From Streptomyces sp. NBC_01571 (GTDB taxonomy: Bacteria; Actinomycetota; Actinomycetes; Streptomycetales; Streptomycetaceae), in assembly GCF_026339875.1 (NCBI RefSeq), contig NZ_JAPEPZ010000002.1, positions 930,001 through 994,000 of the forward strand: a DNA stretch of 64,000 nucleotides, given 5' to 3'. The position numbers were made by a program, and so were the translations under genes. The notes beneath the pieces were generated by a model. The model made no database searches and had not been told where the DNA came from. It was given only the letters and a program-made list of their open reading frames with translations. Position 1 is the first letter of the stretch. Every line of letters starts with the position of its first letter. Shown here piece by piece: positions 37,896-56,930 of this stretch.

Positions 37896-38024
37896 TCAGC
37901 GCCCGAGAAGAACGCTGGCATCGGCCTCGCGGCGCAGCGCGAACGCGTTTGTCTGCTCGCCAGTGGGTCCGCCCTGGTCGGTGACCAGGGCGAACCGCCG
38001 CTCCGCCGCTTGCCCGTACGGCAC
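37896..38024 (-). CDS. Small open frame after M20 gene
   Basis: Forty-two residues from a GTG: VPYGQAAERRFALVTDQGGPTGEQTNAFALRREADASVLLGR. It lies in the same frame as the M20 gene, 15 bp beyond its stop. The composition looks coding, but I know no family and see no ribosome site. It could be the real C-terminal tail of the M20 protein if the TGA at 38040 is wrong, or a separate short gene, or chance. Confidence 0.3.
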   Translation of the reverse strand: MPYGQAAERRFALVTDQGGPTGEQTNAFALRREADASVLLGR

Positions 38025-38039
38025 AGGCAGAAGGACCGG

Positions 38040-39386
38040 TCAGTCGTCGGGACCGGCCAACCGGGCCAGAGCGGCTGTTGCGAGTGCGGTCGTTCCGGTC
38101 TCCAGGGTGAGACGGACGCTGGGCAGGTAGCGGGACGAGTGGTTGCCCGGCAGACTGCGGAATTTCTCGGCGGCGGCGGTGCCGGGGGCGGCCGCCCACT
38201 GTGCGACGCCGACCGCACCGAGCATCCAGTATGCGCCGCGGATGCCGGGGCGTCCGTGCAGGTGCGCGCCTGCGCCGGTCAGGAGCGGGAAGTCCTCGGT
38301 GGCCGAGGTGGCGGGCCAGCCGGTGACGCGGGAGGGGCCGAACGCGGCTACGTGCGCGGCGCGGACGGCGGCTGTGACGTCCGGGTCGGCGACAGTGACA
38401 CTGGAACGGGACGACTGCGCGACGGTGACCCGCGGAGGCATGGCCGCGGAACCCGCCTCAGCGCGGGCGATCCGCTCCACCGCGAGGGCGGCACGGTCGA
38501 GGGCCGCCTCGGAGAAGGCACGGACGGTGACTCGCAGCACCGCCTGTGCGGCGATCACGTTCCCGGTGTGCCCGGCGTCCGCGGTCCGCAGCGAGGACGC
38601 CGAGACGACCAGCCGCTCCGCAGGGTCGGTCTCCTGGGCCACGATCGTGGAGAGCCGCGTCACGGAGCCGGCCGCGGCGAGCAACGGGTCGGCAGCGAGG
38701 TGCGGAGTGGCGGCGTGACCACCGTCGCCCTCGAAGCGCACGTCCAGTGTCAGGCTGCCTGCCAGCACCGGACCGTCCGCATGGGCCACCATCCCCGCCG
38801 GGAAGGACGCCGTGTGCTGCGCGAGGACCACGTCGGGCGGGGGGATCCGCTCGTACAGGCCGTCCTCCAGCATGGCCCTGGCACCGCTGAGGGTCTCCTC
38901 GGCGGGCTGACCGACGACGAGAAGGGTGCCGCGCCAGCTCTCCCGTCGGGCCGCGAGCCACCGTGCCGCGGCCGCCACGCAGGCCAGATGGGCGTCGTGG
39001 CCGCAGGCGTGCATCACCGGGACGGGCCGTCCGTCCGGTCCGGGCGCCGTCACGGTGCTCGCGTAGGGGACGCCGGTCTGCTCGGCCACGGGCAGCGCGT
39101 CGAGTTCGGCGCGCAGGAGGACGGCCGGACCCTCGCCGTTGGAGAGCGTGGCGGCTATGCCGTGTCCGCCGATGCCACGCAGTACGTGGAAGCCGTCCGC
39201 GGCAAGCCAGTCCGCGAACCGGGCGGCGGTACGGCGTTCGGCGCCGGAGAGTTCGGGATGGCTGTGCAGGTCGAGGTACAGCTCGGCGGTGGCGGGCAGC
39301 AAGGTGTCCAGGCCGGGCAGTGCGCGCGGTGCCGGGGGGCTGCCGGAGCCCTGGGGGGTGCGGGGTCCGTCGTGGTCGCTGGTCAA
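38040..39386 (-). CDS. M20D-family amidohydrolase/peptidase
   Basis: A 448-residue zinc amidohydrolase of the AbgB/IAA-amino-acid hydrolase group. Seen: LDLHSHPELSGAERRTA, the metal-binding MHACGHDAHLAC, the catalytic GQPAEETLSGARAMLEDG, and the lid domain with GHAATPH. TTG start with GAGGAG upstream. It is divergent from the precursor gene, sharing a 368-bp promoter region, so it may belong to the RiPP cluster. Possible roles are trimming of the leader or product, or self-protection; neither is proven. No signal peptide, hence cytoplasmic. Confidence 0.8.
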   Translation of the reverse strand: MTSDHDGPRTPQGSGSPPAPRALPGLDTLLPATAELYLDLHSHPELSGAERRTAARFADWLAADGFHVLRGIGGHGIAATLSNGEGPAVLLRAELDALPVAEQTGVPYASTVTAPGPDGRPVPVMHACGHDAHLACVAAAARWLAARRESWRGTLLVVGQPAEETLSGARAMLEDGLYERIPPPDVVLAQHTASFPAGMVAHADGPVLAGSLTLDVRFEGDGGHAATPHLAADPLLAAAGSVTRLSTIVAQETDPAERLVVSASSLRTADAGHTGNVIAAQAVLRVTVRAFSEAALDRAALAVERIARAEAGSAAMPPRVTVAQSSRSSVTVADPDVTAAVRAAHVAAFGPSRVTGWPATSATEDFPLLTGAGAHLHGRPGIRGAYWMLGAVGVAQWAAAPGTAAAEKFRSLPGNHSSRYLPSVRLTLETGTTALATAALARLAGPDD

Positions 39387-39754
39387 GGGCGGGACTCCTC
39401 AGATGTCGGCCGAGTGCACAGGGGTGGGATCACGGAACGGTGAAGCGGTTTGCGGCGGGAGTGCGGTGATGTGTGGTGGCCGGTGAGGAGGCGGCCTTCC
39501 GGTGTCCAGGCCGGCCCGAGGGCTACACGGCGTGGTGAGCGACGGTGGAGGGCGGTCGGCAGGGGTGCCGGTGGAGCTGCCGGTAACGGGACGGCGCGGG
39601 TGTGTCAGTGGGGTGACAGCGGGGAGCCAGGGCGCTGACGTCGGTGCCGCGTAGAAAGGTGGAGCCCGAGGTCTTGGCCTCCGGCAGGTTCAGCGCGTCG
39701 CCGGCCGGGGCTGTCCCGGTCGGTGCCCGGTCCCCGGACCCACAAGGAGACACC
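39387..39754. promoter_or_regulatory. Divergent promoter region of the RiPP precursor
   Basis: Gene-free region between the M20 gene and the precursor. It should hold the precursor promoter and a leader, with AAGGAGA at 39744-39750 as the ribosome site. I found no clear SARP direct repeat by eye. Confidence 0.5.
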
Positions 39755-39928
39755 ATGGCTGACAACACCCTCGCCTCCCTCGCCCAGGAGATCCTGGACC
39801 TCGAGTCGGAGACCTTCGAGATCACGGACTACTCGGACGCCAGCGAGGTCATGCTCGGCTCCTCCACGAGCTGCTCCTCCACCAGCACCTGCTCCAGCAC
39901 CACCAGCACCACCTCCTGCACCGCCTGA
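39755..39928 (+). CDS. RiPP precursor peptide (azole / dehydroamino-acid type)
   Basis: A 57-residue peptide. The start at 39755 is fixed by AAGGAGA; a longer frame from 39644 reads through the leader. Residues 1-35 form an acidic leader (LAQEILDLESETFEI then TDYSDASEVMLG) suited to bind a RiPP recognition element. Residues 36-57 are the likely core: 10 Ser, 8 Thr, 3 Cys (40, 46, 55) and one Ala, starting SSTSCSSTSTC and ending TTSCTA. Cys and some Ser/Thr can be cyclised to azolines, and the other Ser/Thr dehydrated. The leader/core style matches thiazolylpeptide-type precursors. The exact cleavage site is unknown. It is convergent to the biosynthetic operon. Confidence 0.9.
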   Translation: MADNTLASLAQEILDLESETFEITDYSDASEVMLGSSTSCSSTSTCSSTTSTTSCTA

Positions 39929-39942
39929 CGTCCGCGTCGCCA

Positions 39943-39984
39943 TCGACGGTCCCCGGCGCGCTCCTGCGCGTCGGGGGCCGTCGA
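39943..39984. terminator. 18-bp hairpin between precursor and operon
   Basis: Arms 39943-39960 and 39967-39984 pair over all 18 positions (two G-U wobbles) around the 6-nt loop CTCCTG, starting 14 bp past the precursor stop. No T-run follows on either strand. It can serve as a two-way terminator for the convergent units and would protect the 3' end of the precursor mRNA. Confidence 0.72.
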
Positions 39985-40068
39985 CGTCTGCGGCGTACGG
40001 CGTTCTCCCCCGCCATCGACCTCCGCGACCCGTGCCGAACTCCCTGCGGACGGCACGGACTTCGCCCC

Positions 40069-42111
40069 TCAGGGGAACGGGTGCGGCACCCGCCGCAGGT
40101 CCTCCTCCCGCAGCGGCGCCGGGACCAGACCGGCACGGTGCGGCGCAGTCCGCAGGCGCGGCATGTGCAGGGCACGCTGCCGCCGCCAGCCGAAGTCGAT
40201 CGGCAGCAGCCCGGGGGCCAGGGTCGCCACCGTACGCAGTCCCATCCGGCGCTGCTCCGGAGTGGTCTGGTCGACGGCGATGACGTCGCAGTCGGCGCCG
40301 ACGAGCAGATCGCGCAGGAGCAGCAGATCGTCGCGGAGGTCCTCGGTACGCGGCCGGCGCCCGTCCCAGCCGGCGAACAGTTCGCCGAGGGAACCGACCT
40401 GGGGCGGCGCGAGGTAGTTCGCGGCGTGCTCGCGCATCGCGGGCAGCCCGAACAGGGCCGCGTGGTCCGGAAGTCGTTCGACGAGGTCGAAGTCCTCGGT
40501 CATGGCGGTGAGTTCGGCGGGCCGTTCGGCGACCTGGCCGGGCAGGTGCGGGATGTAAGTGAGGATCTCGGAGACGGCGGACTCGACGGCCGTCTCCGGG
40601 TCGAAGGAGGCGCCGGCCGCGAACGCCAGTGTTCCCGGCCCGTCGTCGCGGCGGACCGCGAGGCCGGTGACGACGGGGACCGGCAGGTCCACCCGGTTGT
40701 CGAAGACATGGACGTCGTAGCCCTGGAGCGCGGCCCGCGCCACCATGGCCCGCACCTTCGGGCCGCGTACCGAGGCCAAGTCGATCTCGGACAGGGGCAG
40801 GTCGCCGTACCAGCCGAGCAGGAAGGCGTCCCGCTCGACGAGTTCGAGGAGGCCGAAGAAGACGGCTTCCTCCCAGGTCCCGCCGGTGGCGCAGCCGTTG
40901 GAGCACTCGAAGACGAAGTTGTCCTCGCGGGTACCGGCGCTGTAGTAGACGAGCCGGGCCGGGACGAGCACCGGACGCTCGTCGCGCAGCGACCATCCGG
41001 TGACCCAGGGCAGCGGCCGGGCCGGGTCGAAGGGCTGGACCATCGGGTCCAGGGCGTAGGTGCGGGGTTCGTACAGGCCGCACACGCGTGGGTCGAGGGC
41101 CCGGTCGCCGAGTTCGTCGAGGGACGCGGTGACGACCGGGGCACGGTGTCGGCGGTGGGTGCCCGCGTACCGTTCCAGACCTTCGAGGAACGCCAGATCG
41201 CGGCTGCCGGCGTAGGAGTTGGCCTGACCGCTCCAGGTGACGTCGGTGAGTCCGGCGTAGCCGCGCATGAAGACGCTGCCGGCGACCGGCGCGGTCGTGG
41301 GTGAGGTGACGTCGATCCAGGTGCCGCCGCCGAGCACCCCGCACACCGGGTTGGCGAGACCCTTGACCGGCAGCGGGTAGTCGTCGGGACGGCGCAGCCG
41401 GTAGGTGTCCGGGCCCGGTTTCCGGCGGGATGACGGCGGCTCCGGGGTGGCCTCGGCGGCGGCCCGCAGGGCGGCCTCCTCGGTGAACGGGCGGCAGTGC
41501 GGGCACATCGGCTCGGGCACCAGCGGGAAGGTGCGTACCCGGAGGGTCTCCAGGTCGAGTTCGGTGATCCGGGGCAGTGCGCCGTCGGCGCCGTCAGCGC
41601 CGTCGGCGGTGTGCGGCGCGGCGCCGGTGGTGATGAGCCGGTGCAGGGACCACACGGCGTCCACGGTGTGGTCCGGCAGGGTGGGCCACGGTCCGGCCGC
41701 GGTGGTCTCCGTGCCGGTCTCCAGTGCCTCGCGCTCGGTGCGGGTGCGCAGCCTCTGACGGCGCATGGCCAGGCAGGTTCCACAGGCCGGGTCGGCGTCG
41801 GGGGCGCCGCCCCAGGGGCCGAGCAGCACGGCCTGGGCGGTGAGGTGGACGACGGCCGCGTTCGGGGGCGCGGGCTGCCCGCCCGGGACCGCCGCCGTGG
41901 GCGTGGACTGCGTGTCCACCCCCTCCGTGACGGTTGCCGTGGGCACGGACTGGCCGGCCGGCCTGCCGAGGACGTTGATGTCGCCGATACGGGAGACGGC
42001 CGGGGCGGGCACACCGGCCGCCGCGGCGCGGGCCGCCAGGCGGGTCTGGAGTTCCGCGCGGGCGGCCTCCAGGGGCGGGACGGCGGGTGCGGGGGCGGTG
42101 ACGGTGGTCAT
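40069..42111 (-). CDS. YcaO cyclodehydratase (first of two)
   Basis: A 680-residue protein. The N-terminal ~250 residues contain CGTC and CPHC, two Cys pairs that could hold zinc, and probably a partner-docking region. The YcaO domain follows: SYAGSRDLAFLEGLERYAG (ATP/Mg region), FECSNGCATGGTWEEAVFFGLLELVERDAF, and ILTYI. It ends PHPFP, the Pro-rich C terminus needed for cyclodehydration in SagD-type enzymes. It uses ATP to turn Cys/Ser/Thr of the core into azolines together with the F protein. Last gene of the operon; its ATG overlaps the permease stop by 4 nt. Confidence 0.9.
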   Translation of the reverse strand: MTTVTAPAPAVPPLEAARAELQTRLAARAAAAGVPAPAVSRIGDINVLGRPAGQSVPTATVTEGVDTQSTPTAAVPGGQPAPPNAAVVHLTAQAVLLGPWGGAPDADPACGTCLAMRRQRLRTRTEREALETGTETTAAGPWPTLPDHTVDAVWSLHRLITTGAAPHTADGADGADGALPRITELDLETLRVRTFPLVPEPMCPHCRPFTEEAALRAAAEATPEPPSSRRKPGPDTYRLRRPDDYPLPVKGLANPVCGVLGGGTWIDVTSPTTAPVAGSVFMRGYAGLTDVTWSGQANSYAGSRDLAFLEGLERYAGTHRRHRAPVVTASLDELGDRALDPRVCGLYEPRTYALDPMVQPFDPARPLPWVTGWSLRDERPVLVPARLVYYSAGTREDNFVFECSNGCATGGTWEEAVFFGLLELVERDAFLLGWYGDLPLSEIDLASVRGPKVRAMVARAALQGYDVHVFDNRVDLPVPVVTGLAVRRDDGPGTLAFAAGASFDPETAVESAVSEILTYIPHLPGQVAERPAELTAMTEDFDLVERLPDHAALFGLPAMREHAANYLAPPQVGSLGELFAGWDGRRPRTEDLRDDLLLLRDLLVGADCDVIAVDQTTPEQRRMGLRTVATLAPGLLPIDFGWRRQRALHMPRLRTAPHRAGLVPAPLREEDLRRVPHPFP

Positions 42112-42860
42112 GGCCGGTTGCTCCAGCGGAAGATCCGGGTGGCGATCAGCCCGAAGACCAGGGCGAACACGGCGAGGCCCACGCAGTCCACACCGATGTC
42201 ACCGAGATCCCCGCGGCCGCCGAAGGCGTCGGTGAGCCCGTCGTTGAGGTAGTGCAGCGGCAGGACCTTGGCGACGTCACGCAGCCAGCCCGGCATGAGG
42301 TCGTCGGGGAAGAACGACCCGGAGAGGAAGGCCATGGGCACCATCACGATGTTGGCGATGGCCGCGACCGCCTCCGGGCTGTTGGCGACGCTGCCCACGA
42401 CCAGACCCATGGCGAGGAAGGCCGTGACTCCCCCTACCAGCAGCGGAATCGCCGCCCACCAGGTCCCGTTGAGCCGGAGGCCGAAGAACGGCAGCAGGGC
42501 GATGGCGGTGAACAGCACCGTCTGTACCAGAGCGACGCCCAGCGCCACGGTCCAGCGCGAGGCGAGCAGCGTGCGCAGCGGGGTCGGGGTCCGCCAGATG
42601 AGGCGGAGCAGGTCGTCCCGGCGCCACTGCATCAGGGCGAAGCCGACGGAGAACACCGCCGCGTTGCCCACACCCCAGGAGAGCACGCCCGGAGCGATGT
42701 AGTTGATGGACGACAGGCCGCCGTCGACGTGCTGGCCCTGGAAGATGAGGCCGAAGAGGACCAGGAAGGCGAGCGGGAAGGCGAAGGTGAAGAAGAGGGT
42801 CGTCCTGTCGCGCACGCTCGCGACGTAGGTGGCCCTGGTCAGTGCGGCGTAGGCGCTCAA
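42108..42860 (-). CDS. ABC transporter permease (ABC-2 type)
   Basis: About 250 residues from a TTG at 42860 that overlaps the stop of the ABC ATPase (TTGA). Six membrane spans of the ABC-2 type: DRTTLFFTFAFPLAFLVLFGLIF, SWGVGNAAVFSVGFALM, and the last VDCVGLAVFALVFGLIATRIF, with the typical SPEAVAAIANIVMVPMAFLSGSFFP loop. A longer upstream frame is a shadow of the ATPase gene. With the ATPase part of the preceding gene it forms an exporter for the mature peptide or for self-resistance. Confidence 0.85.
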   Translation of the reverse strand: MSAYAALTRATYVASVRDRTTLFFTFAFPLAFLVLFGLIFQGQHVDGGLSSINYIAPGVLSWGVGNAAVFSVGFALMQWRRDDLLRLIWRTPTPLRTLLASRWTVALGVALVQTVLFTAIALLPFFGLRLNGTWWAAIPLLVGGVTAFLAMGLVVGSVANSPEAVAAIANIVMVPMAFLSGSFFPDDLMPGWLRDVAKVLPLHYLNDGLTDAFGGRGDLGDIGVDCVGLAVFALVFGLIATRIFRWSNRP

Positions 42861-45271
42861 CGGTGGTGCTCCGATCCGGTTCCGGTCAGCGTCAGGTAGG
42901 CGTCTTCGAGGGTGGGGGTGCGGACGGTGACCGTGTCGATGTCCACGAGGTCCCCGAGGGCGGTGAGGACGCGGTTGGGGACGGTCGTCTCCAGGACTAG
43001 GTCGTCGCCCTGGACGGTGGCGCGGTCCACGCCGGCCAGTGCGACGGCCGCCTCGGCGGAGAGGCCGGCGGCGGGGACGAACAGGCGGGTGGGGGCGGCG
43101 AGGGAGCGGATGAGGTTGCGGGGCGTGTCGAGCGCGACGACCCGGCCGCCGGCGATGATCGCCACCCGGTCGCAGAGCGCCTCGGCCTCCTCCAGGTAGT
43201 GGGTGGTGCAGATGATCGTGCGCCCCTCCGCGCGCAACGAGCGCAGTACGTCCCACAGTTCGCGGCGGGCCTCGGGGTCGAGGGCGGCCGTCGGTTCGTC
43301 CAGGAAGATCAGATCGGGTTCGTGCAGCAGCGCGGTCGCGACGGCGAGGCGCTGGCGCTGACCGCCCGAGAGGTGGTCGACGCGGGCGTTCTCCTTCTCG
43401 GTGAGGTTGACGCGTTCCAGTGCGGTGGTCGCTGCGGTCGGGTCCATGCCGTAGAGCGCGGCGACCGTGCGCAGATGCTCGCCCGCGGTGAGGCGGGCGA
43501 AGAACGCCGACGCCTGCGTCTGTACACCGATCCGGGCCAGCAGCGCGGTGTCGCGGGGCCAGGGGCTCTGCCCGAAGACGGTCACCGTGCCGGAATCGGC
43601 CTCGCGCATGCCCCCGACGATCTCCACCAGGGTGGTCTTGCCCGCGCCGTTGGGGCCGAGGATGCCGAAGAACTCGCCGTGTCGTACGTCGAGGCTGACA
43701 CCGTCGAGTGCCGTCACCTCCCCGTACCGCTTGGTGACGCCGTCCACGGCGACGACCGGCTCAGTAGCGGTCACACCGACGGCGCTCTCAGCGGGGAGGG
43801 TCTCGGTGAGGATGGCCTCGGTGACGGTCTCGGACTTGCTTTCGGGTGCGCTCATCGCCTCTTTCCTAGGGTGGATCCGTGGGCTCGGGCCGTGCGGGAG
43901 CGGTCCGGTGCCCGTCGCCGGGGTGGGGTGCCCAGACGTGGCGGTGGGGGGTGTGGGGCCGGTGCCCTGGTCCTTCGGGGAGGCGGCGGGGGCACGTCCG
44001 TCGGGCGCGGGCGCCTGCGTGGGGCCACTGGTCGCGGCGGGCGTGGTGCGCCGGGAGCGGCCGAATGAACCCAGGGCCCACAGGAGCAGTACGGCGGCGA
44101 GCAGGGCGACGGGCAGCCACCAGGCCAGGACCGCGAGGCCGTCCGGCAGGGTGACGCGCAACGCGGCTCCGCACAGGGCGAGCAGCGCGGCGCTCTGTAC
44201 GGCGGTCAGCAGGGCGAAGCCGCCGTACAGGACCCGCAGTCGGGGCGGGTACGCGGTGAGGCCGGGTCCGCGGCGGAACGCGGCACGGACCGCGATACCC
44301 GCGAAGTCGCGGCTGCCGGTGGCGAGTTGGGTGACGCCTAGGGCGTGGCCGAGGGCCCGGTAGCCGTCGAGGGGTGCCAGCGGCAGCAGATTGGCCACGG
44401 CGGAGACCACCCCGAGGAGAAGCAGCGCGCCGAGCGCGGGGCGGGCCTGGGCCTGGGCGGGCAACAGCGCCCACACGGCGTAGAAGGGCACGAGGAAGAG
44501 CAGGTTGGCGAAGACGCCGGCGCAGGCGGTGGCGACCTTGCGGCCGCGGCTGCCGAGGAACTGGACGTCCTCCACCGTGCAGTAGAGATAGGTGGCGCCG
44601 AGGATCCAGCGCAGCCCGACTTCGGTGACGCGGCCGCCCCAGGCCCGTGCGAACAGTCCGTGGGCGAGTTCGTGGAGGGCGAGGCTGCACCACAGGACGC
44701 AGCCGACGGCGAGCAGCAGCGCGGGCTGCCGTGCCGTCTCCTCGGTGTGCCGCCAGAGCGGGCCGGCCTGGACGGCGACGGCGGCGAGCAGCGCGACGGC
44801 CAGCATGACGAGCAGGATCAGCACGGCGGGCCGTCGGGCGGGAGCGGTGGCCCGGTGCAGCCGGTCCATCAGCGCGGGCGCGTCGGCGACCAGCCGGGTC
44901 CGTCCGGCGAGGATGCTGCTCGGCGGATGGCCGGCCCGGGGAACGGTGGGCGGCGTGGAGGGCACGGCGGCCGGTGCGGGGCCGCTGTCTAGGAGGTCTC
45001 GGCCGTGCAGCAGCCGGAGCATCTGTCCCCACTGGGCCTCGCCGAGTCGCGCCCCGAACTCGCCCGCGTACGCCTGGCCGATCTCGTCGAGGCTGTGACT
45101 GCCGTCGAGCCGGGCGATGATGAAGTGCTCCTTGGGGCCGAACTCCAGGCGCCGACCGGTGCGCGGGTCCATCAGCAGGTGGATGCGGTCGGCACCGCGC
45201 ACCAGGCTGGGGCCGAACACGACGTCGCCCCGTACGCACGGCCGGGCGGCGAGGAACGCGTCGGTGCTCAC
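42857..45271 (-). CDS. PqqD-like/M50 metalloprotease fused to ABC ATPase
   Basis: One 804-residue frame. Residues 15-90 resemble a PqqD/RRE-like winged helix (EFGPKEHFIIARLDGSHSLDEIGQAYAGEFG). Residues 145-400 are an integral M50 (site-2) protease with HELAH (200-204) and the second metal motif NLLPLAPLDGYRA (Asp302). A Pro/Thr-rich linker (410-472) leads to a full ABC ATPase: GPNGAGKTT, LSGGQRQRL, LIFLDEPTAALD. An internal ATG at 43855 with GGAAAGAGG could give a separate 332-residue ATPase. GTG start overlapping the elimination-enzyme stop. The protease might remove the leader during export. Confidence 0.82.
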   Translation of the reverse strand: MSTDAFLAARPCVRGDVVFGPSLVRGADRIHLLMDPRTGRRLEFGPKEHFIIARLDGSHSLDEIGQAYAGEFGARLGEAQWGQMLRLLHGRDLLDSGPAPAAVPSTPPTVPRAGHPPSSILAGRTRLVADAPALMDRLHRATAPARRPAVLILLVMLAVALLAAVAVQAGPLWRHTEETARQPALLLAVGCVLWCSLALHELAHGLFARAWGGRVTEVGLRWILGATYLYCTVEDVQFLGSRGRKVATACAGVFANLLFLVPFYAVWALLPAQAQARPALGALLLLGVVSAVANLLPLAPLDGYRALGHALGVTQLATGSRDFAGIAVRAAFRRGPGLTAYPPRLRVLYGGFALLTAVQSAALLALCGAALRVTLPDGLAVLAWWLPVALLAAVLLLWALGSFGRSRRTTPAATSGPTQAPAPDGRAPAASPKDQGTGPTPPTATSGHPTPATGTGPLPHGPSPRIHPRKEAMSAPESKSETVTEAILTETLPAESAVGVTATEPVVAVDGVTKRYGEVTALDGVSLDVRHGEFFGILGPNGAGKTTLVEIVGGMREADSGTVTVFGQSPWPRDTALLARIGVQTQASAFFARLTAGEHLRTVAALYGMDPTAATTALERVNLTEKENARVDHLSGGQRQRLAVATALLHEPDLIFLDEPTAALDPEARRELWDVLRSLRAEGRTIICTTHYLEEAEALCDRVAIIAGGRVVALDTPRNLIRSLAAPTRLFVPAAGLSAEAAVALAGVDRATVQGDDLVLETTVPNRVLTALGDLVDIDTVTVRTPTLEDAYLTLTGTGSEHHR

Positions 45272-46434
45272 TCTTCGCTCCCCGGCGTCCGACCGCCTTC
45301 CGGCGCCGGGTCGGCGCCCGGTCCGTCGGTGCCCGCGGCCTCCGCGTCCCCCTTCTCCCCGGCGTTCCCGGACGCCTCGTCACGCAGAGCGCGGGCCAGG
45401 ACGTAGGAGAGGAACGCCTCGTCGCGGATGGTCATGCTCAGCCGGTTGTTGGTCATGTGCATGTACGGCGAGAGCAGCATGGGCAGCGCCTGGGCGGGAT
45501 CGGTGGGGCGGATGTCGCGGCTGTTGTCCCACGCCCGGAACGTCAGCTCACCACCCACCGCCAACGCCTCGGCCCGGTCGCGCAGTTCGGCGCAGTGCTC
45601 GGCCCAGCCGCGCAGAAACGCCGGGAGCCGTTCCGGCTCGCCCTGCGCGACCGTGTCGCGGATGCGGCGGAAACGCTCGGGAAGGCTCGCGCCCATCGCG
45701 CTGTAGGCGCGGTCGTAGCCCTTGTCCTCGGTGTAGTTGGTTCCGTTGAACGCCCGGTCCCAGAAGGCGTGGTAGCGGTCGAGGAAGGTGAGCAGCGCCG
45801 CGTCGTCCTTGAGGAAGGTGCCGGACATGACCATCATCAGCTGGGCGGAGAGCCCGAGGAGCACGGTGCGCAGGTGCAGGTTCATGCTGCGCGTGGCCTC
45901 GACGACCAGGTCGCTGGAGTGCTGGAAGTGCCACTCGGCCAGGGCGATGCCGCTGGGGCCGCCGTATTTGCCGTACTCGGGCTCGTAAGGCCGGTCCTCG
46001 AAGCTGTTGTTGGGGCGCAGTCGCATCCGTCCGTCGTCGCCGAGGAACGCGGCGCGCTGGTCCTCGGTGTACTCCAGGGTGAACAGGGTCTCGTACAGCT
46101 CGGCGAGGAAGCCCGCCTTCACCTCGTACAGCGCCGGCCGTTCCCGAAGGAAGGCGTCGAGGGCCGCGTGTGCCCGCTCCCGGACGACGGGGGCGTCGGC
46201 GGCCCGCCGGGGGCGCAGCCGCAGCCGCAGGTGCGGGCCCTCCAGCCAGTAGTTGATGAAGAAGTACCCGGCGAGCAGGCCCTCCTCGGTGAGTTCGTCC
46301 ACGAGTGGTCTGACGCACTGCAGGAGCAGCGGGCGGGGGCTGGCTGCGTAGAAGACGTGCACGGCGAGCCAGTCGCCGGGGGCGTCGTCGTCCTGGGTGC
46401 CGGGGGTGTCGGGGGATGCGGTGGGCGCGGTCAT
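45268..46434 (-). CDS. Split LanB elimination enzyme (SpaB_C / thiopeptide-type)
   Basis: A 388-residue protein; the ATG at 46434 overlaps the LanB stop (ATGA). The longer frame upstream is a shadow. It shows the thiopeptide-type bacteriocin domain: WLAVHVFYAASPRPLLLQCVRPLVDEL, then GYFFINYWLEGPHLRLRLRP with the H-L-R-L-R arginines used for glutamate elimination in NisB, and YGKYGGPSGIALAEWHFQHSSDLVVEA. It removes glutamate from glutamylated Ser/Thr to give dehydroamino acids. Pyridine synthases share this fold, but only one such gene is present and it pairs with LanB, so elimination is the better call. Confidence 0.85.
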   Translation of the reverse strand: MTAPTASPDTPGTQDDDAPGDWLAVHVFYAASPRPLLLQCVRPLVDELTEEGLLAGYFFINYWLEGPHLRLRLRPRRAADAPVVRERAHAALDAFLRERPALYEVKAGFLAELYETLFTLEYTEDQRAAFLGDDGRMRLRPNNSFEDRPYEPEYGKYGGPSGIALAEWHFQHSSDLVVEATRSMNLHLRTVLLGLSAQLMMVMSGTFLKDDAALLTFLDRYHAFWDRAFNGTNYTEDKGYDRAYSAMGASLPERFRRIRDTVAQGEPERLPAFLRGWAEHCAELRDRAEALAVGGELTFRAWDNSRDIRPTDPAQALPMLLSPYMHMTNNRLSMTIRDEAFLSYVLARALRDEASGNAGEKGDAEAAGTDGPGADPAPEGGRTPGSEE

Positions 46435-49190: not shown

Positions 49191-49200
49191 GCCCTCCCCC

Positions 49201-49248
49201 TTTCGTGTGGGGTGTGCTGCCGTCTTTCGTGTGGGGTGTGCCGCCGTC
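49201..49248. repeat. 24-bp tandem duplication before LanB
   Basis: TTTCGTGTGGGGTGTGCTGC plus CGTC is repeated directly with one change (T to C). It lies in the 130-bp gap between the SagB-type gene and LanB, next to the LanB ribosome site. Confidence 0.75.
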
Positions 49249-49320
49249 CGCGGGCGGGCCGCCAGTCCGGTCGGCGACCCCGGGGCGGGGCGGCGTTCGG
49301 GGGCAGGGCCCGGCCGGGGG

Positions 49321-50910
49321 TCACGGCGCGACGATGTCGTAGCGGTAGTCGGCGGAGCGGGCACGCTCGTGGCCGATCATCATGATCAGCAGCGGGATCT
49401 CGCCCCGCTCGGCCAGCCCGAGTTCCTCCTCGAACGAGACGCTGTCGAAGCCCAGGGCGACACCGCAGCCGGTGCCGGCCGCGGAGGCGGCGGTGTAGAC
49501 GGCCTGGGCGACGGCGCCGACAACGGCGTTGACCAGGCGGTAGCCGCGGTCCCCGACGGCGTCCAGCACGGCGTGTGTACGTGCCACCGGCACCAGGACG
49601 GCGGCGGCCTGCTCCACGTTGTAGTTGGCGAGGAAGTAGTTCTGCTGGAGGAAGGAGCCGTAGTCGCCCGCCTTCAGCAGCACCAGCTCACCGGTGTCAC
49701 GGTCGTACTCGTAGAGGCCGGCCGGCACGTCGCGGACATGGTTGACGAAAACGCACAGCCGGGTCAGGGGTGCTCCCCCGGGCGATTCGGCGTCACTGTC
49801 CAGCGTGCTCGCGGCCATCGCCGCCCGCAGCGTGGCGGACAGCTTGGCCGCGTCGAGCGGCTCGACGGACGTGAACCGCCCGAAGCTGCTGCGGCGTTCA
49901 CGCAGCGCACGGCGTACGGGAACCTCCAGCGGCGCGGGCGCCGGCAGTGGGACGCGGTCGCCGGAGACGGCGGGAGCGGCGAGGGCGGCGTCCAGGACGC
50001 CGGGGGCGGGCCGGTCCGCGGCGCCCTCCAGGGTGGCGGCGTGGATACGTTCCAGGGTCGGGAAGGACAGCACCCGGTGGGACTTCTCGTCGGGGACCCG
50101 GCGCACGAAGGCGTCGGGTGTCGCCGGTGCCGGCGTCGGTGCGGCGGTGCCGGCCCAGCGCAGCGGTACGACGGCGAACACACCGTCCTCCTCGGGAGTC
50201 AGCCCGAGCAGCCGGCCGAGCCGGGGCTCGTCGAACCAGAGGGCGCTGCCGAGGTGGAGGCGGTGCGCGCGGGCCCACATGCGCCAGGTCTGCACGAGGG
50301 CGCCGATGTCCATCGTCACGGCGTGGTAGCAGAAGCTGTTGTACTTGAACGAGTTCTGCCAGAACGTCACGCCGAGGACGAGGAACTGGTCGGTCCCGGC
50401 GGCTTCCTCCAGATCGCCGAGGGCCGTGCGGACCTCTGCGCTCACGTCGCCCGACAGGACCCGGGTGACGCGGTGGTGCGGGGTGTCGTAGTAGTAGACG
50501 CCCGGCGTCAGGGGCCCGCTCGCCCCGCTGATCCAGTGCACGCCGATGGGGTAGAGGCCGCCGCCGGAGGCGGTGCCGCGCGACCAGTTGGCGTGCGAGT
50601 AGAACGGCAGGGAGCCCAGGTCGGTGTTGGCCTGGACGGCGAGACGGCGCCCGGTCAGACCGTAGGAGTCCCGGAGCATCGCGCCGAGCAGCGGCAGCGT
50701 GAACGCGCCCGTGCCGGACTCGCCGAACAGGCCCCGGCCGAGGGTCGCGTCCGCGGCGCAGCCGCCGTCGGGGAGTGGCACGTGCGAGGCGCCGGGGAAG
50801 AACTTGCCCTTGCGGGGGCGGTCGGACCAGTCGGGGACGAAGTCGGCCGGTTCCATGGGGACTCGGCCCCGCCGCATCACCGCGGTCGCGTACTCATGGG
50901 CGTATCCCAC
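49321..50910 (-). CDS. SagB-type FMN-dependent peptide dehydrogenase
   Basis: About 529 residues. GTG at 50910 is preferred because GGGAG sits 5 nt before it; another GTG is at 50916. The C-terminal nitroreductase fold shows RRSSFGRFTSVEPLDAAKLSATLRAAM, the FMN-binding HVRDVPAGLYEYDRDTGELVLL and GTGCGVALGFDSVSFEEELGL. The N-terminal half (ANWSRGTASGGGLYPIGVHWISGASGPLTPGVYYYD) repeats the same fold, as in longer TOMM dehydrogenases. It would oxidise azolines to aromatic thiazoles/oxazoles. Confidence 0.88.
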   Translation of the reverse strand: MGYAHEYATAVMRRGRVPMEPADFVPDWSDRPRKGKFFPGASHVPLPDGGCAADATLGRGLFGESGTGAFTLPLLGAMLRDSYGLTGRRLAVQANTDLGSLPFYSHANWSRGTASGGGLYPIGVHWISGASGPLTPGVYYYDTPHHRVTRVLSGDVSAEVRTALGDLEEAAGTDQFLVLGVTFWQNSFKYNSFCYHAVTMDIGALVQTWRMWARAHRLHLGSALWFDEPRLGRLLGLTPEEDGVFAVVPLRWAGTAAPTPAPATPDAFVRRVPDEKSHRVLSFPTLERIHAATLEGAADRPAPGVLDAALAAPAVSGDRVPLPAPAPLEVPVRRALRERRSSFGRFTSVEPLDAAKLSATLRAAMAASTLDSDAESPGGAPLTRLCVFVNHVRDVPAGLYEYDRDTGELVLLKAGDYGSFLQQNYFLANYNVEQAAAVLVPVARTHAVLDAVGDRGYRLVNAVVGAVAQAVYTAASAAGTGCGVALGFDSVSFEEELGLAERGEIPLLIMMIGHERARSADYRYDIVAP

Positions 50911-51034
50911 GGTCACTCCCTTTTCTGCTCGTGCTCGTCTGTGGTGGGCGCGGACGGCTGAAGTGCCGGGCGCCGTATGGGGCGTGGTGCGGATGTCGGG
51001 GGCCGGCGCGTCGGTCGAGCGACGGGTGCGGTGG

Positions 51035-52990
51035 TCAAGGGAAGGGGTGCGGGGCCGGGTTGAGGCCGTCCGGGGGCAGGTCGTCGGCGCGCAGTCCTGC
51101 CTCTCGCAGCGCGGTGCGTGCGCGGGGCATCAGGGGGCCGCGCTGCCGGTTCCAGCCGAAGTCGATCGGGATGAGGCCGGGCACCAGGACCTTGACCGTG
51201 TGAAAGCCGAGTGCCCGCTGTTCGGCGACGGTCTGGTCGACCACCACCACGTCGAATCCCCGTGCGGTGACCGCGTCGACGCACGCCGCCACGTCGTCCC
51301 GCAGATCGGCCGAGGCGGGCAGGGCACCGGGGCCGGAGGCGAGCGACGACAGCGGCACCCGGTCCGCGACGTCGCGGCCGCGCAGCAGGAAGTCGGTGTA
51401 CGGGCCCATCTCGGGCAGCCCGTACAGCAGTGGGTGGTCGTGCAGCACCCGCACCTCGCCGAAGTCCTCCGCCATCCGCCGGAGTCGACGCTCCTCGCGA
51501 GCCGTACGGCGGCGGAGGTTGACGGAGTCGGTGGCGATCTCGCAGAGCCCGCCGGCGAGCGCGTCCTCGGGGTCGAGGGAGGCGCCCGCGCCGAAGCAGA
51601 GCAGTCCGGGTCCGCCGTCGACGCGTTCGGCGACCGCCGTCACCACCGGCACCGGGAAGGTGACGCGGGTGTCGAAGAACCGTGCCCGGTAGCCGTACAT
51701 GGCGAGCCGGGCGACCATGGCCCGGGTGGCCGGCCGGGTGCTGCTCGACGGGTCGATCTCGGGCAGCCGGGCCCGGCCGAACCAGGCCAGCAGGAACGCG
51801 TCGCGCTCGATGGTCTCCATCAGGCCGTGGTAGACGGCCTCGGCGAGACTGCCGCCGGAGGCACAGCCGTTGGAGCTCTCCTGGACGAAGCGCCGCTGGA
51901 TACCCCCGGGTGCGTGGTAGTACGCCACGACCTCCGGTACGAGAACCGGCCGGTCCTCGCGCAGCGACCAGCCCCACACCCACCGCACCGGGCGGTCCGG
52001 GGCGAAGCGCGGCGCGTCCGGGTCGGCGGCGTGGAAGGCGTCGGAGTAAAGGCCGGTGACACGCGGATCGACCGCCGTGTCGCCGAGGTCGTCGAGCGCG
52101 GCGGTCACGACGGGCCGCTTGGCGCGGGCCCGCATCCCCGCGTACCGCTCAAGTCCCTCCAGCAGTCCCACGCGTACGCTCGCGTCGTAGGTGCCGGTGT
52201 GACCGCCCCAGTAGCACTCCCGCAGGTAGTCGCCCGAGCGGGTGGTGAACGCGCCGACCGTGGAGGAGGTGGAGGCGGACGTCAGGTCGGGTACGACGGA
52301 CGGTCCGAGCATCCCGGTGACGGGGTTGGCGAACGCCTCGGGCACCAGGTCGTAGGCGTGCAGCGGGCGCAGCCGGAAGCCGTCCGGGGCGTGCTTGGGG
52401 CTGGAGTCGAGGGTGATCCGGGCGGCTTCGGCGGTGTCGTCGGGACGTGACCCGCAGGACGGGCACTCACCGTCCGGTACCAGCGGGAACCGGGCCACGT
52501 GCAGCGTCTCCAGGTCCAGCAGCCACACCCACGGGTGTCGGGCGGCGCGGGGGTGCCGGGCCGCCGCCGCGACGAGGGCGGACAGGGCGTCCGCCACGAA
52601 GTCGGCCTGCCACGGCGGGATGCCGGTGGCCCGGGTCTCCCCGTCGCGCTCGATGGCGTCGCGCAAAAATCCGGCCCGTACCGACTGCCAGCGCCGGGCC
52701 AGACAGCCCGGACAGCCCGGACCGCCGTCCACGGTCGGCGGGCCGACCACGGCGTGGTGCCCGTACAGCCCGACCGGTACGGCGTCGGCGGCGAACTCCG
52801 CCGGTCCGGCGGCCAGTTCATCGCGACGGCCGAGCGGGACCACTACGGCCGGCGGTGTGCCGGGGTGGCGTCCCGCACGCTCCGCGAGGGCGTCGGTCAG
52901 CGCGGCGCAGACCTCGTCCCAGGGCCCGGTGGACCCCGTTTCACGTGCCGCGGCCCGGTCGCGCGGCGCGGCCACGGTGTCAGTCGGCAC
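51035..52990 (-). CDS. YcaO cyclodehydratase (second of two)
   Basis: A 651-residue relative of the 40069 protein with the same plan: Cys pairs CPGC and CPSC in the N-terminal domain, then SVRVGLLEGLERYAG, QESSNGCASGGSLAEAVYHGLMETIERDAF, and the terminal PAPHPFP. GTG start overlaps the F-protein gene by 11 nt. Two full cyclodehydratases in one operon suggest a division of work, for example Cys versus Ser/Thr residues or different regions of the core. Which does which cannot be told from sequence. Confidence 0.9.
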   Translation of the reverse strand: MPTDTVAAPRDRAAARETGSTGPWDEVCAALTDALAERAGRHPGTPPAVVVPLGRRDELAAGPAEFAADAVPVGLYGHHAVVGPPTVDGGPGCPGCLARRWQSVRAGFLRDAIERDGETRATGIPPWQADFVADALSALVAAAARHPRAARHPWVWLLDLETLHVARFPLVPDGECPSCGSRPDDTAEAARITLDSSPKHAPDGFRLRPLHAYDLVPEAFANPVTGMLGPSVVPDLTSASTSSTVGAFTTRSGDYLRECYWGGHTGTYDASVRVGLLEGLERYAGMRARAKRPVVTAALDDLGDTAVDPRVTGLYSDAFHAADPDAPRFAPDRPVRWVWGWSLREDRPVLVPEVVAYYHAPGGIQRRFVQESSNGCASGGSLAEAVYHGLMETIERDAFLLAWFGRARLPEIDPSSSTRPATRAMVARLAMYGYRARFFDTRVTFPVPVVTAVAERVDGGPGLLCFGAGASLDPEDALAGGLCEIATDSVNLRRRTAREERRLRRMAEDFGEVRVLHDHPLLYGLPEMGPYTDFLLRGRDVADRVPLSSLASGPGALPASADLRDDVAACVDAVTARGFDVVVVDQTVAEQRALGFHTVKVLVPGLIPIDFGWNRQRGPLMPRARTALREAGLRADDLPPDGLNPAPHPFP

Positions 52991-55502
52991 AGGGCGCCCC
53001 GCGGGTCAGCAGGACGCGCGCCGCGTGGAGGTGCCCGGCCGCGAGGTCGGGGGCGCGCAGCGGTACCGCGAGGGCGTCCCGGCCGGCGGCGGCGAGGCCG
53101 TCGAGCACGGCGGCCCAGGTGGTGTCGGTGTCCGCCAGCGGTACGACGCCCTCGGCGACGAGGGTGGCGGCGTCCAGGTCGGCCCACATCGGGTCGCCGG
53201 TGTCGGGTCCGTCCGCGGCGCGGCGCAGTTGCTCGGCGCCGAGCAGGTCGCGCAGGGCCTCCAGTACGGAGTCGCGGTGCCGCAGGCCGCTGCCGGTCGC
53301 CCAGCGCACCTCGGCGGTCGCCGGATCGGTGAGGCGGGCCAGGGCGACGGGCAGCAGACCGTCGCCGGCTGCGGTGAGGTCGAGGATCTCGACGTCGACG
53401 CCCAGGTTCTCCGCCGAGCGCAGCAGGAAGAGCGCCTCGGGGTCGGCGGTGAGGGAGGAGGGGTCCACGGCGGGCACCGGTGCGGTGCGGCGGACGGCGC
53501 CGCGCAGCGCGTCGAGCGCGAGTGCGGTCGCCAGGGCTCGGGCGAGCGCGGGCCGCGGGGCGGTGGCGACGCCGGTGCCGGCCGAGGTCCGCTCGAACAG
53601 GCCCAGATCGTTCCAGCCGCCCAGGGTGCGGACGGCGCCCGCCGGTACCAGCACGGTCCGGCCGTCGGTCAGGGAGACGGCTTCGCTCCAGTGGGCGACC
53701 CGGTCCGCCGGGACGTCGAGCCCGCTGGAGACGGCGAGTTCGGCCGGCGCGACACGGGTCCACTTGCCGACGGCGGCCGGGAGCGCGGTGGCGTCGAGCA
53801 CCCGGGGCGGAACGACGTGTTCGGCGTAGACCTCCGCGGCACGGAAGAGCGCGGTGAGGCGGGCACCGGCCACGGTGTGGACATCGGCGGCGGAGATCCG
53901 GCGCGTCCGGCCGGGCGCGATGCCCAGGACGACGGTGCTGACCTTGAGCGGGGTCTGCTCCCAGTCCTCGTCGGCGAACGCGGTGAAGACACCGGCCCGC
54001 TCGTGGACGAGGACGCTTCGCTGCTCGAGTGCCGCGAGCAGGGCCTTGGCGGCGTCTTCGTCGGCGGCTCCGTCGGCGGGCGGCACCGCGGGCTCGTCGT
54101 CCGAGTGGGGCGTACGCAGCATCTCGCCCGGAAGGGCGGCGGGTTCGGTCGCGCTGGTGTCCGCGGCGGCGACGGTGGCCTGCTCGGCGCCGGCGACGCC
54201 CGTGACCGCGGCGATGTCCTTGACCGCACCGGCGTTCTCGTCCGCGGCGGAGTTCAGGGCCCCGCCGAGGCCCTCGGCGGCGCCGGTGTTCTCGATCCCA
54301 CCGCCGTCCTCGGTCCCCCCGGCATCCTCGGCCAAGCCCGTTTCCCCGGCCGCGCAGTACGGGCAGCGGGGGTGCGGGAGGAGCGGCTCGGTCAGTACGT
54401 CGAGGGAGTCGAGGTCCTGGACCACGATCTGGTTACGGGTCTCGGCGGGCAGCGCCTCGGTGGTGAGGCGGAACACCTCGAAGGCGAGGAGGTTGCCGAG
54501 CATGCCGGCGAGCGGGCCGGTGAGGTCGGGTGCGGGGGCGCCCAGCGGCGCGGCGGGGCCGACCGAGGCCCACAGTTCCGCGCTGTCGGCGGCGTCGGAG
54601 CCCGCGCCGAGCCGCAGGACGGCGCAGCACCAGCAGCCGGGATCGTCTGCGGTCATCACCGGGCCGACGACGGCACGATTGCCGAACGTCCAGGCTCCGA
54701 GCAGTCGGCGGCCGGCGGGCACGCCCTCGGCGAGCAGTCGGAGCAGTTGACGGCGCCCGGCCGCACCGGCGACCAGGACGGTGTCCCAGCCGTCGAGGTC
54801 CTGCCAGCCGTACGTCCCGTCGTCGAAGGGGGTGCCTGCGGCGGGCCGGACTTCGGCGGGCGAAGCCCCGGCGGTGGGTGCGGGCAGGCGGACCAGGCGG
54901 GGGGCGCAGCCCGCCTCGGTGAGGGCCGCGGCCTCGGCGTCGAGGTCGGCGGTGCCCTCGACCCCGTGGAGTTCGCGGGAGAGCCCGTCGTACGGCAGGT
55001 CCGGCTCGGTGATGGTCACGGCGGCGCAGCCGTTACGGAGCAGGCCGAGCGCCGCCCACCGGGCCAGGGCGCCGTCGCCCAGGACCGCGACGGGGGTGGA
55101 GCGGAAGCGCAGGAATCGGGCGGGCGCGTTGTCCGCGTAGTGGTCAAGGTAGTCGAGTTGACGCGAGAAACGTTTCTTTACCTGGGGTGACAAGCCGACC
55201 GCCGGTGGCGTAAGCCCGGCGTCCCGGGCGAAACCACGCGCGTAGAGTGCGCGCACGAGTTGGACCACCATGTCGCGCTGCTTGTCCCCCAGGCCGGCGC
55301 ACAGTTCCTCGACCCGGCGCTCGCCGTCGAGATGGGGCACGATCAGCGCGGCGAAGCGGTACGCGGACTGCGTGACGACATTGAACCCGCCGTGGGCGTT
55401 GTGGAAGAGCACCCCGGACGGGGTCCGGGTGAACAGCACGTCCCTGCGGATGCGGGGCCGCGACTGAGCGATCTCCTCGTGGGACGCGGGAGCGTAGGCC
55501 AT
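52980..55502 (-). CDS. F protein: RRE/Ocin-ThiF leader-binding protein, extended
   Basis: An 840-residue protein. Residues 10-100 form the RiPP recognition element (RPRIRRDVLFTRTPSGVLFHNAHGGFNVVTQSAYRFAALIVPHLDG). Residues 130-390 are ThiF/E1-like (FRSTPVAVLGDGALARWAALGLLRNG) with the zinc cysteines CWCC and CPYC. After a Glu/Ala-rich linker, residues about 500-840 (PLKVSTVVLGIAPGRTRRISAADVHTVAGARLTALFRAAEVYAEH...) look like a diverged YcaO-type domain without the ATP motifs. It should bind the leader and present the core to the two YcaO enzymes. ATG with GGAGG 13 nt upstream. Confidence 0.85.
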   Translation of the reverse strand: MAYAPASHEEIAQSRPRIRRDVLFTRTPSGVLFHNAHGGFNVVTQSAYRFAALIVPHLDGERRVEELCAGLGDKQRDMVVQLVRALYARGFARDAGLTPPAVGLSPQVKKRFSRQLDYLDHYADNAPARFLRFRSTPVAVLGDGALARWAALGLLRNGCAAVTITEPDLPYDGLSRELHGVEGTADLDAEAAALTEAGCAPRLVRLPAPTAGASPAEVRPAAGTPFDDGTYGWQDLDGWDTVLVAGAAGRRQLLRLLAEGVPAGRRLLGAWTFGNRAVVGPVMTADDPGCWCCAVLRLGAGSDAADSAELWASVGPAAPLGAPAPDLTGPLAGMLGNLLAFEVFRLTTEALPAETRNQIVVQDLDSLDVLTEPLLPHPRCPYCAAGETGLAEDAGGTEDGGGIENTGAAEGLGGALNSAADENAGAVKDIAAVTGVAGAEQATVAAADTSATEPAALPGEMLRTPHSDDEPAVPPADGAADEDAAKALLAALEQRSVLVHERAGVFTAFADEDWEQTPLKVSTVVLGIAPGRTRRISAADVHTVAGARLTALFRAAEVYAEHVVPPRVLDATALPAAVGKWTRVAPAELAVSSGLDVPADRVAHWSEAVSLTDGRTVLVPAGAVRTLGGWNDLGLFERTSAGTGVATAPRPALARALATALALDALRGAVRRTAPVPAVDPSSLTADPEALFLLRSAENLGVDVEILDLTAAGDGLLPVALARLTDPATAEVRWATGSGLRHRDSVLEALRDLLGAEQLRRAADGPDTGDPMWADLDAATLVAEGVVPLADTDTTWAAVLDGLAAAGRDALAVPLRAPDLAAGHLHAARVLLTRGAPCAD

Positions 55503-55561
55503 GGGGTGCGTAAACCTCCGAAGTGCGGGGGGCGGTCAGCCAGTGGTCGGCGGGGGGACGG

Positions 55562-56698
55562 TCAGCCGGCGGCCGGCGGGGAGAAGTACGTCGGATCGGG
55601 TGGGGCGGCGCTCGGGAGGCTGGTGCCGGCCGCCTGGACGAAGAGCCGAAGCAGGTCGTGGACGCGGTAGCGGCCGGACGGATCCTCTTCCAACAGCCCG
55701 GCGTTGACGAGGGCGCGCAGGACGAGGGTTCCCGAGGCCGGAGGTGAGGCCCGTCCGAGACCGGACGACGCAGCGGCTGTGGGTGGCGGAACACCTGCGT
55801 TGGCCGACCCGGGACGTCCGCCGGTTGGTTCGCCGCGCAGGACGGCGCCGTGCAGGTCGCGCAGTGCCGTGCCGGGCTCCACGCCCAGCTCCGAGGTGAG
55901 GTGCGCGTGGATCCTGCGATACTCGGCGAGTGCCTCGGCGCGTCGCCCGGAGCGGTACAGGGCCTCGATGAGCAGGGCGGACAGCCCCTCGTGGCCGGGA
56001 TCGGCTCGGATCGCCTCGCGGGCGTCGGCGACCATCTCCCGGTGTCGTCCCAGGCTCAGTTCACCGTCGAAGACGCGCTCGACCGCGAGGAGCCGTTCCT
56101 CGGTCAGGCGGGGCACGAGGTCACGATGGAGCTCGTCGGAGTGGACGTTGCCGAGGACCGGACCCTTCCAGAGGCGCAGCGCGGTCCGGGCGAGGTGCAG
56201 CGCGGACTCGGGGTCTTCGCTGGCACCGGCCCGTCGCAACAACTCGCGGAACCGGAGCAGGTCGAGGGTGTCGGCGTCGGCGTGGAGCCGGTAACCGCCG
56301 GGGACGGCCTCGATCGCCTGGTCGGCTACGCCGTACTTCGCGAAGAGCCGGCGCAGTCGCAGCACACAGGTGTGCAGCGCCGATCGGCCGCCGGCCGGTG
56401 GTCGGGTTCCCCAGACCACGCGCTGAAGCAAATCGGCGGAGACGACGGCGCCGGGATGCAGAAGGAGCGCGGCGAGCAGCGCACTGGGTCGGGAGGGTTG
56501 CAGCACGACCGTCTCGTGGCCGTCGGTGATGGCCAGCAGACCGAGCACCAGGAAGCGGGGTCGGTCGGTGGCTCCTGCTGCGGCGGTAGTCAGTTCAGCG
56601 AGTGCGCCGTCGGGCGCGGGGGCACCGGTCTTCACCACAGCCTTTCGCATCGCACGGTGGGTGGGGTGGTCCACCAAAGGCATTGCACGGCAACGCAC
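55562..56698 (-). CDS. SARP-family transcriptional activator
   Basis: About 378 residues. An OmpR-like winged helix (FLVLGLLAITDGHETVVLQPSRPSALLAALLLHPGAVVSADLLQRVVWG...ALHTCVLRLRRLF...AIEAVPGGYRL) is followed by the BTAD repeat domain (FRELLRRAGAS to VEPGTALRDLHGAVL). The last 50 residues (LVLRALVNAGLLEEDPSGRYRVHDLLRLFVQAAG) resemble the helix after the NB-ARC ATPase of AfsR-type proteins, although no ATPase is present. First gene of the operon, 59 bp before the F protein; it likely activates the cluster. Start codon uncertain (ATGs at 56698, 56683 and 56650). Confidence 0.85.
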   Translation of the reverse strand: MRCRAMPLVDHPTHRAMRKAVVKTGAPAPDGALAELTTAAAGATDRPRFLVLGLLAITDGHETVVLQPSRPSALLAALLLHPGAVVSADLLQRVVWGTRPPAGGRSALHTCVLRLRRLFAKYGVADQAIEAVPGGYRLHADADTLDLLRFRELLRRAGASEDPESALHLARTALRLWKGPVLGNVHSDELHRDLVPRLTEERLLAVERVFDGELSLGRHREMVADAREAIRADPGHEGLSALLIEALYRSGRRAEALAEYRRIHAHLTSELGVEPGTALRDLHGAVLRGEPTGGRPGSANAGVPPPTAAASSGLGRASPPASGTLVLRALVNAGLLEEDPSGRYRVHDLLRLFVQAAGTSLPSAAPPDPTYFSPPAAG

Positions 56699-56930
56699 TT
56701 GCCCCCGCCGGGGATGTGTGGCGGGTACAAGCTCGGTGCCGAGAGGGGAACTTAGATTCGATCAGGCCACCACGTCCAGTGGTTGGTATGAAACAACTGG
56801 TTACAAGTGCGGTCGCCGGGACCCGGGATGCCCAAGTGTGGGGGTGTGGTTTTGGCGGGTGGTCTGCCAGGGCATACGCTCCCGGAGGAGTGCCGGAGGA
56901 TCTCCGTATGCCGCACTCAGGGGAGGATTC

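Follow-up and report, generated by a model that had tools for sequence, protein, structure and literature searches.

A serine-, threonine- and cysteine-rich peptide core in a widespread actinomycete gene cluster predicted to make a goadsporin-type product

We examined a stretch of 64,000 nucleotides from Streptomyces sp. NBC_01571 (contig NZ_JAPEPZ010000002.1, positions 930,001 to 994,000; hereafter the window), in which positions 37896..56698 hold a gene cluster for a ribosomally synthesised and post-translationally modified peptide (RiPP). Pfam and NCBIfam models delimit an operon running on the reverse strand from 56698 to 40069, which encodes in order a SARP, an F protein, cyclodehydratase A, SagB, two LanB halves, an M50-ABC fusion, a permease and cyclodehydratase B (Table 1). 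The precursor gene lies on the opposite strand, between the converging end of the operon and a divergent M20 peptidase gene. An earlier sequence-only reading of this range had listed the operon enzymes and described the precursor core; all the enzymes that it named are present and the precursor is a real gene within the range, but the third, degenerate YcaO of the F protein and the M20 gene had been missed, and the placing of the precursor on the strand opposite the operon is a correction. The sole content of the first 144 bases of the range is a 42-codon open reading frame.

Table 1. Features of the cluster, in positions of the window
Feature	Position	Strand	Evidence and remarks
Precursor peptide, 57 residues	39755-39928	+	ATG start, AAGGAG upstream, stop 39926-39928
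Precursor leader	39755-39859	+	precedes core
Precursor core (Ser/Thr/Cys and final Ala)	39860-39925	+	residues 36-57
M20 metallopeptidase/amidohydrolase	38040..39386	-	divergent from precursor; PF01546, 5.3e-24; putative peptide trimming
Cyclodehydratase B: C domain and YcaO	40069..42111	-	ExxERD motif, C-terminal PHPFP
ABC-2 permease	42108..42860	-	Pfam; predicted TTG start overlaps ATPase stop
M50/site-2-type protease fused to ABC ATPase	42857..45271	-	HELAH and NLLPLAPLDG motifs
LanB elimination half (SpaB_C)	45268..46434	-	PF14028; motifs GPHLRLR, YEPEYGKYGG, HMTNNRL
LanB glutamylation half	46431..49190	-	likely GTG start at 49190; PF04738; solved chain 6ec7 (presumably TbtB), 5.6e-35
SagB-type flavin dehydrogenase	49321..50916	-	TIGR03605 121.7 bits, cut-off 78.4; predicted azoline-to-azole oxidation
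Cyclodehydratase A: C domain without front part, and YcaO	51035..52990	-	ExxERD motif, C-terminal PHPFP
F protein: ThiF/E1-like front half and pseudo-YcaO (residues ~470-840)	52980..55502	-	predicted leader binding
SARP-type transcriptional activator	55562..56698	-	Pfam BTAD and Trans_reg_C

The core of the precursor, SSTSCSSTSTCSSTTSTTSCTA, consists of 10 Ser, 8 Thr, 3 Cys and a C-terminal Ala, and this recount agrees with the 18 hydroxy residues and three Cys first reported. Its 21-codon run of Ser, Thr and Cys is not attributable to chance, since the second-longest such run in the six frames of the window has 8 codons and the longest run per window did not exceed 9 codons in 100 windows simulated with an order-2 Markov model. 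The precursor passes two NCBI models, NF033400 (45.8 bits, cut-off 30) and TIGR03892 (42.5 bits, cut-off 25), which already give it the name thiazolylpeptide-type bacteriocin. A scan for promoters and terminators around the gene found nothing.

All three YcaO matches of the whole genome fall within this operon. The two cyclodehydratases score 309 and 328 bits against TIGR03604 (cut-off 219), and both contain a C domain (TIGR03882) above cut-off, while the F protein comprises a whole heterocyclase fold with a YcaO half devoid of ATP-site motifs. This arrangement was compared across 21 clusters, namely that of the window and those in 20 kb stretches from 20 relatives. The ExxERD motif and C-terminal PHPF are present in 21/21 A proteins and in 20/20 B proteins, a count that leaves out a Pseudonocardia stretch (L101) ending before its second YcaO gene, and in 0/21 pseudo domains of the F proteins. 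Two proteins of the cluster thus carry the intact ATP motifs by which YcaO enzymes of azole-forming RiPPs are recognised (linear azol(in)e-containing peptides and thiazole/oxazole-modified microcins, LAP/TOMM).

The second enzyme system is the split LanB pair. Across the 21 clusters, the SpaB_C half retains motifs of the YxPExxKYGG and HMTxNRL types in 21/21 cases and GPHxRxR in 19/21, and these regions align with the dehydratase MibB. The NisB variants R786A, R826A and H961A are reported to glutamylate without elimination (PMC4979651; also PMC4341554). No pyridine synthase over the family cut-off was found in the genome, where the sole NF045556 match is SpaB_C of the cluster itself (101.5 versus 325 bits), a negative to be read with the division of the genome into 15 contigs and with TbtD being the closest solved fold of SpaB_C. 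We rejected membership of the thiopeptides because no pyridine synthase exceeds the cut-off, and the genome encodes one PF14028 protein. Retained as a rival is the proposal that the lone SpaB_C eliminates glutamate and also forms a pyridine, or does only the latter. This appears rather improbable, as the SpaB_C motifs agree with the MibB elimination domain, alignments with TbtD and 7cww show them absent or changed, and with a single PF14028 protein elimination would otherwise be left without an enzyme. What is found here is the combination that marks the goadsporin type: YcaO, dehydrogenase and split LanB with no pyridine synthase. Cys and dehydratable residues do occur together in one core, so that attack of Cys on dehydrated Ser or Thr could be imagined to yield a lanthionine-type product; yet two cyclodehydratases would compete for Cys and Pfam matched no LanC-type cyclase in any protein assigned to the cluster, and we consider such a product extremely improbable.

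A protein search with the precursor gave 160 homologues at E ≤ 10, 120 of them listed. Among the matches listed, the precursors of Streptomyces murinus and Streptomyces sp. NPDC020917 have an identical 22-residue core, and that of Catenulispora acidiphila differs at one core residue. Most precursor variants have cores composed only, or nearly only, of Ser, Thr and Cys, among them the five precursors of Actinomadura, the four of Pseudonocardia, the two of Nocardioides and those on plasmids of Streptomyces sp. NBC_00316 and Actinomyces oris; other residues, for example Lys or Pro, occur near the end in some of the homologues listed. We aligned the cores in 23 columns, a step at which 19 of the 120 listed homologues did not fit and 12 of 75 locus rows were likewise dropped. 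With the reservation that related sequences make the column and pair counts non-independent, Ser is invariant at columns 10, 13, 17 and 20 in 91 distinct common-type precursors (52 distinct cores), and this holds in tighter subsets. These serines are encoded by both TCN and AGY with the residue unchanged (54 distinct DNA cores). In 47 common-type cores we counted 287 Ser-[Thr/Cys] pairs, against a maximum of 235 in 2000 shuffles, and in 39 other cores 237, against 200 in the same number of shuffles; Ser is also common after Cys. The ratio of nonsynonymous to synonymous polymorphism (pN/pS) is 0.63 for the core and 0.57 for columns 8-21, values that do not establish strong constraint and that come from a counting method which sends the two Ser codon boxes via other residues.

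These columns also bear on the idea of a near-complete polyazole, in which the two YcaO enzymes would cyclise nearly all Ser, Thr and Cys and leave few or no dehydroamino acids. Two motif-intact cyclodehydratases, a dehydrogenase and a core of almost entirely cyclisable residues speak for such a product, but Cys never appears at seven of the ten Ser columns (7, 8, 10, 13, 14, 17 and 20) in the 91 precursors, and both LanB halves are kept in 21/21 clusters together with the elimination motifs counted above. We therefore consider a polyazole unlikely.

The enzyme set gives good support to the class originally proposed, an azole- and dehydroamino-acid-containing RiPP, and the cluster very probably converts a near-pure Ser/Thr/Cys peptide into a chain in which rings and double bonds follow one another. 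On balance, and with modest confidence, we favour a linear product of goadsporin type, with azoles derived from Thr and Cys and dehydroalanine from Ser that precedes an azole. From the genes, the motifs, their conservation and the lack of a pyridine synthase over cut-off, all directly observed here, we infer which reactions take place and in what order, which residues they affect and how export proceeds, as follows. The F protein, whose heterocyclase fold has no ATP-site motifs, would bind the leader at the LESETFEITDY region, allowing cyclodehydratases A and B to convert Thr and Cys, and perhaps some Ser, to azolines, which SagB would oxidise to methyloxazoles and thiazoles. The glutamylation half of LanB would then glutamylate those Ser immediately followed by an azole, and elimination of glutamate by the SpaB_C half would give dehydroalanine, such that the core would end mostly as a run of dehydroalanine-azole pairs. 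No [4+2] pyridine ring would be formed. Leader cleavage at export may fall to the site-2-type protease of the ABC ATPase fusion, and M20 may trim one end. The pairing follows from applying to this core a rule from other systems: in goadsporin, dehydroalanine at S4 and S14 requires azoles at T5 and S15 (PMC5303826), and in carnazolamide an unrelated enzyme modifies Ser only before an azole (PMC10676384).

Which residues become azole and which dehydroalanine is only suggested, by the four invariant core Ser. In a first count Cys was found at 7/7 Thr columns versus 3/10 Ser columns (p 0.0098), as would be expected if Thr and Cys, but not Ser, were interchangeable as ring sites; however, in cores with 6 or fewer differences from the consensus the contrast falls to 4/7 versus 3/10 (p 0.35), and it is gone in tighter sets (p 0.35 to 1). 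The contrast rests on divergent or apparently out-of-register cores, and we discarded it as not robust. As a consequence we hold the goadsporin-type reading slightly less firmly than before, with two of the rivals raised slightly, and have also marked down a more extreme form of it. In this form an almost unbroken, conjugated and foldamer-like dehydroalanine-azole chain would result, with the last Ala almost the only unmodified residue; the order of Ser, Thr and Cys would be conserved across actinomycete genera, and two cyclodehydratases would share the work on one leader, held by a dead third heterocyclase. We regard this as possible but doubtful. The proposal of the sequence-only reading that modification might reach nearly all core residues is likewise possible.

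The nearest characterised pathway is that of goadsporin, with which the cluster shares a cyclodehydratase, a flavin dehydrogenase, a split LanB pair and the lack of a [4+2] enzyme (PMC5303826, PMC4603692), together with a peptidase-bearing ABC transporter thought to cleave the leader and a linear product with azoles and dehydroalanine, which for our cluster is only predicted. In contrast to goadsporin, there are two cyclodehydratases, an F protein and an M20 gene, and the core is without spacer residues. Nor is there an acetyltransferase among the assigned genes: no N-acetyltransferase was matched by Pfam in proteins assigned to the cluster, the flanks having been scanned only in part. The comparison with thiopeptide, goadsporin and LAP clusters that had been suggested at the outset thus places the cluster near goadsporin, apart from the differences just named, and away from thiopeptides for want of the pyridine synthase. 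Coryneazolisin clusters of types 1 and 2 also have two D proteins, lanthipeptide-like dehydratases, no [4+2] enzyme and a core rich in Ser, Thr and Cys (PMC4603692), and the product is described there as uncharacterised. One of their D proteins is discrete and the other fused to C, whereas here a C domain is on both; their core has 10 Ser/Thr/Cys residues, Ile and then 5-7 more, whereas ours contains no Ile. Thiopeptides such as thiomuracin share the thiazolylpeptide-type precursor model, the F protein, a C-YcaO and glutamylation and SpaB_C halves, but in our genome no pyridine synthase passes the family cut-off. Dehydrazoles and carnazolamide likewise combine many azoles with dehydroalanines, Ser being dehydrated only before an azole; they rely, however, on an enzyme of LanM type (DUF4135) and have a leader resembling nitrile hydratase, whereas the dehydratase here is the LanB pair (PMC10676384). 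Spongiicolazolicins A and B, linear azole peptides of a Streptomyces that have been called goadsporin-related, are 29 and 28 residues long, compared with the 22-residue core described here (PMC8838263, PMC10676384).

Relatives of the cluster are numerous. A profile of 30 precursors matches 66/392 sampled genomes of the genus (own included, one weak at 3.5e-4), and a precursor match was found in 9/61 genomes of the relatives' sample, own included. In a sample of the phylum, 5/396 genomes match (own included, one weak at 3.5e-4), all of the same genus, and TIGR03892 is above cut-off in 4/396, again with our own. A scan of named genomes gave at least 27 loci, and the same gene set is present in Streptomyces, Kitasatospora, Catenulispora, Salinispora, Nocardioides and others. 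The order F, A (or a YcaO), SagB, both LanB halves and M50 is kept in 20/20 relatives, usually followed by ABC, permease and B. Variations are observed in L092, where ABC and permease lie beyond B; in L100 (Actinomadura), where B and the precursors are placed on the opposite side of F and a permease was not seen; and in L101, where neither ABC nor permease was matched and the stretch ends before the second YcaO. M50 and ABC are fused in 6/19 relatives with both parts matched and are separate frames in 13/19. SARP was not seen in L096, L100 or L101, although the genome of L100 has one just outside (L029). The M20 gene is beside the precursor or cluster in 16/20 relatives and was not seen in L092, L095 (stretch cut), L100 or L101. 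The precursor itself varies in place: its neighbour is SARP in L095 and L109; in L098 and L104 it is found past M20, and in L096 precursors flank M20 on either side; in L101 it falls between F and A, and in the genome of L099 it adjoins M20 about 8 kb from B.

Five precursors accompany one enzyme set in Actinomadura (L100 2267-3097) and four in Pseudonocardia (L101 11860-12634), with differing core orders, and these multiple precursors possibly give rise to several products. One Catenulispora acidiphila genome has two clusters of the family (L102 and L103), and a glycine-rich stretch separates leader and core in the L103 and L105 precursors. A related cluster on plasmid NZ_CP116225.1 of the oral actinomycete Actinomyces oris (L111 20320-21391 and L135) has two full-length YcaO matches and four tandem precursors, two of them with identical Ser-rich cores. 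We dropped a proposed link between the second YcaO and Thr-rich cores, as two full-length YcaO matches occur on this plasmid and in the Pseudonocardia genome too, and a single one is found only on the NBC_00316 plasmid.

No paper on this cluster or its product was recognised in the open-licence literature, which leaves most subscription journals outside, and the negative is accordingly weak evidence of absence. It could be taken to mean that the cluster is silent or decayed and makes no product. We consider this very unlikely, as the frames are open and the catalytic motifs retained, and one amino-acid core shared by 30 fetched loci is written in 26 DNA versions. The sequence-only reading had found the core unusual and beyond placing with any known product. 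That description holds as far as the open-licence literature goes but the core is not singular, being covered by two NCBI models, found identically elsewhere and accompanied by genes that recur in several genera. The cluster belongs to a real, functional-looking and widespread orphan family that is a variant of the goadsporin type and not a new category.

Among the assigned genes no duplicated antibiotic target was recognised, which leaves the transporter as the sole candidate for self-protection; its best NCBIfam matches are the DrrA and DrrB models, below cut-off. The proportion of GC is 0.737 in 37900-56750, compared with 0.667 and 0.680 in the flanks (~6-7 points higher). Since the 20 kb stretches of the relatives are likewise GC-rich (0.704-0.774), this may be the family's own composition or reflect recent arrival. 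The window is near the end of a 1.05 Mb contig, for which a megaplasmid and a chromosome arm are both candidates; the contig bears 2/77 tRNA matches and 0/3 ParB_N matches of the genome. Among the plasmid records listed as matches (20 of 27), DNA-level coverage of the cluster stays at about 1% or below. Elsewhere in the window, at ~6-19 kb, matches were found to plasmid segments, of Streptomyces and others, that carry annotations for transposases (IS110, ISL3 and IS5) and for a group II intron maturase.

The family is common in the genus and has no product in the open-licence literature. If the proposed pathway is correct, it would provide a test of how two enzyme systems that rival each other for the same Ser and Thr residues divide a core offering almost nothing else, and would show the separate contributions of two cyclodehydratases and a dead third one.
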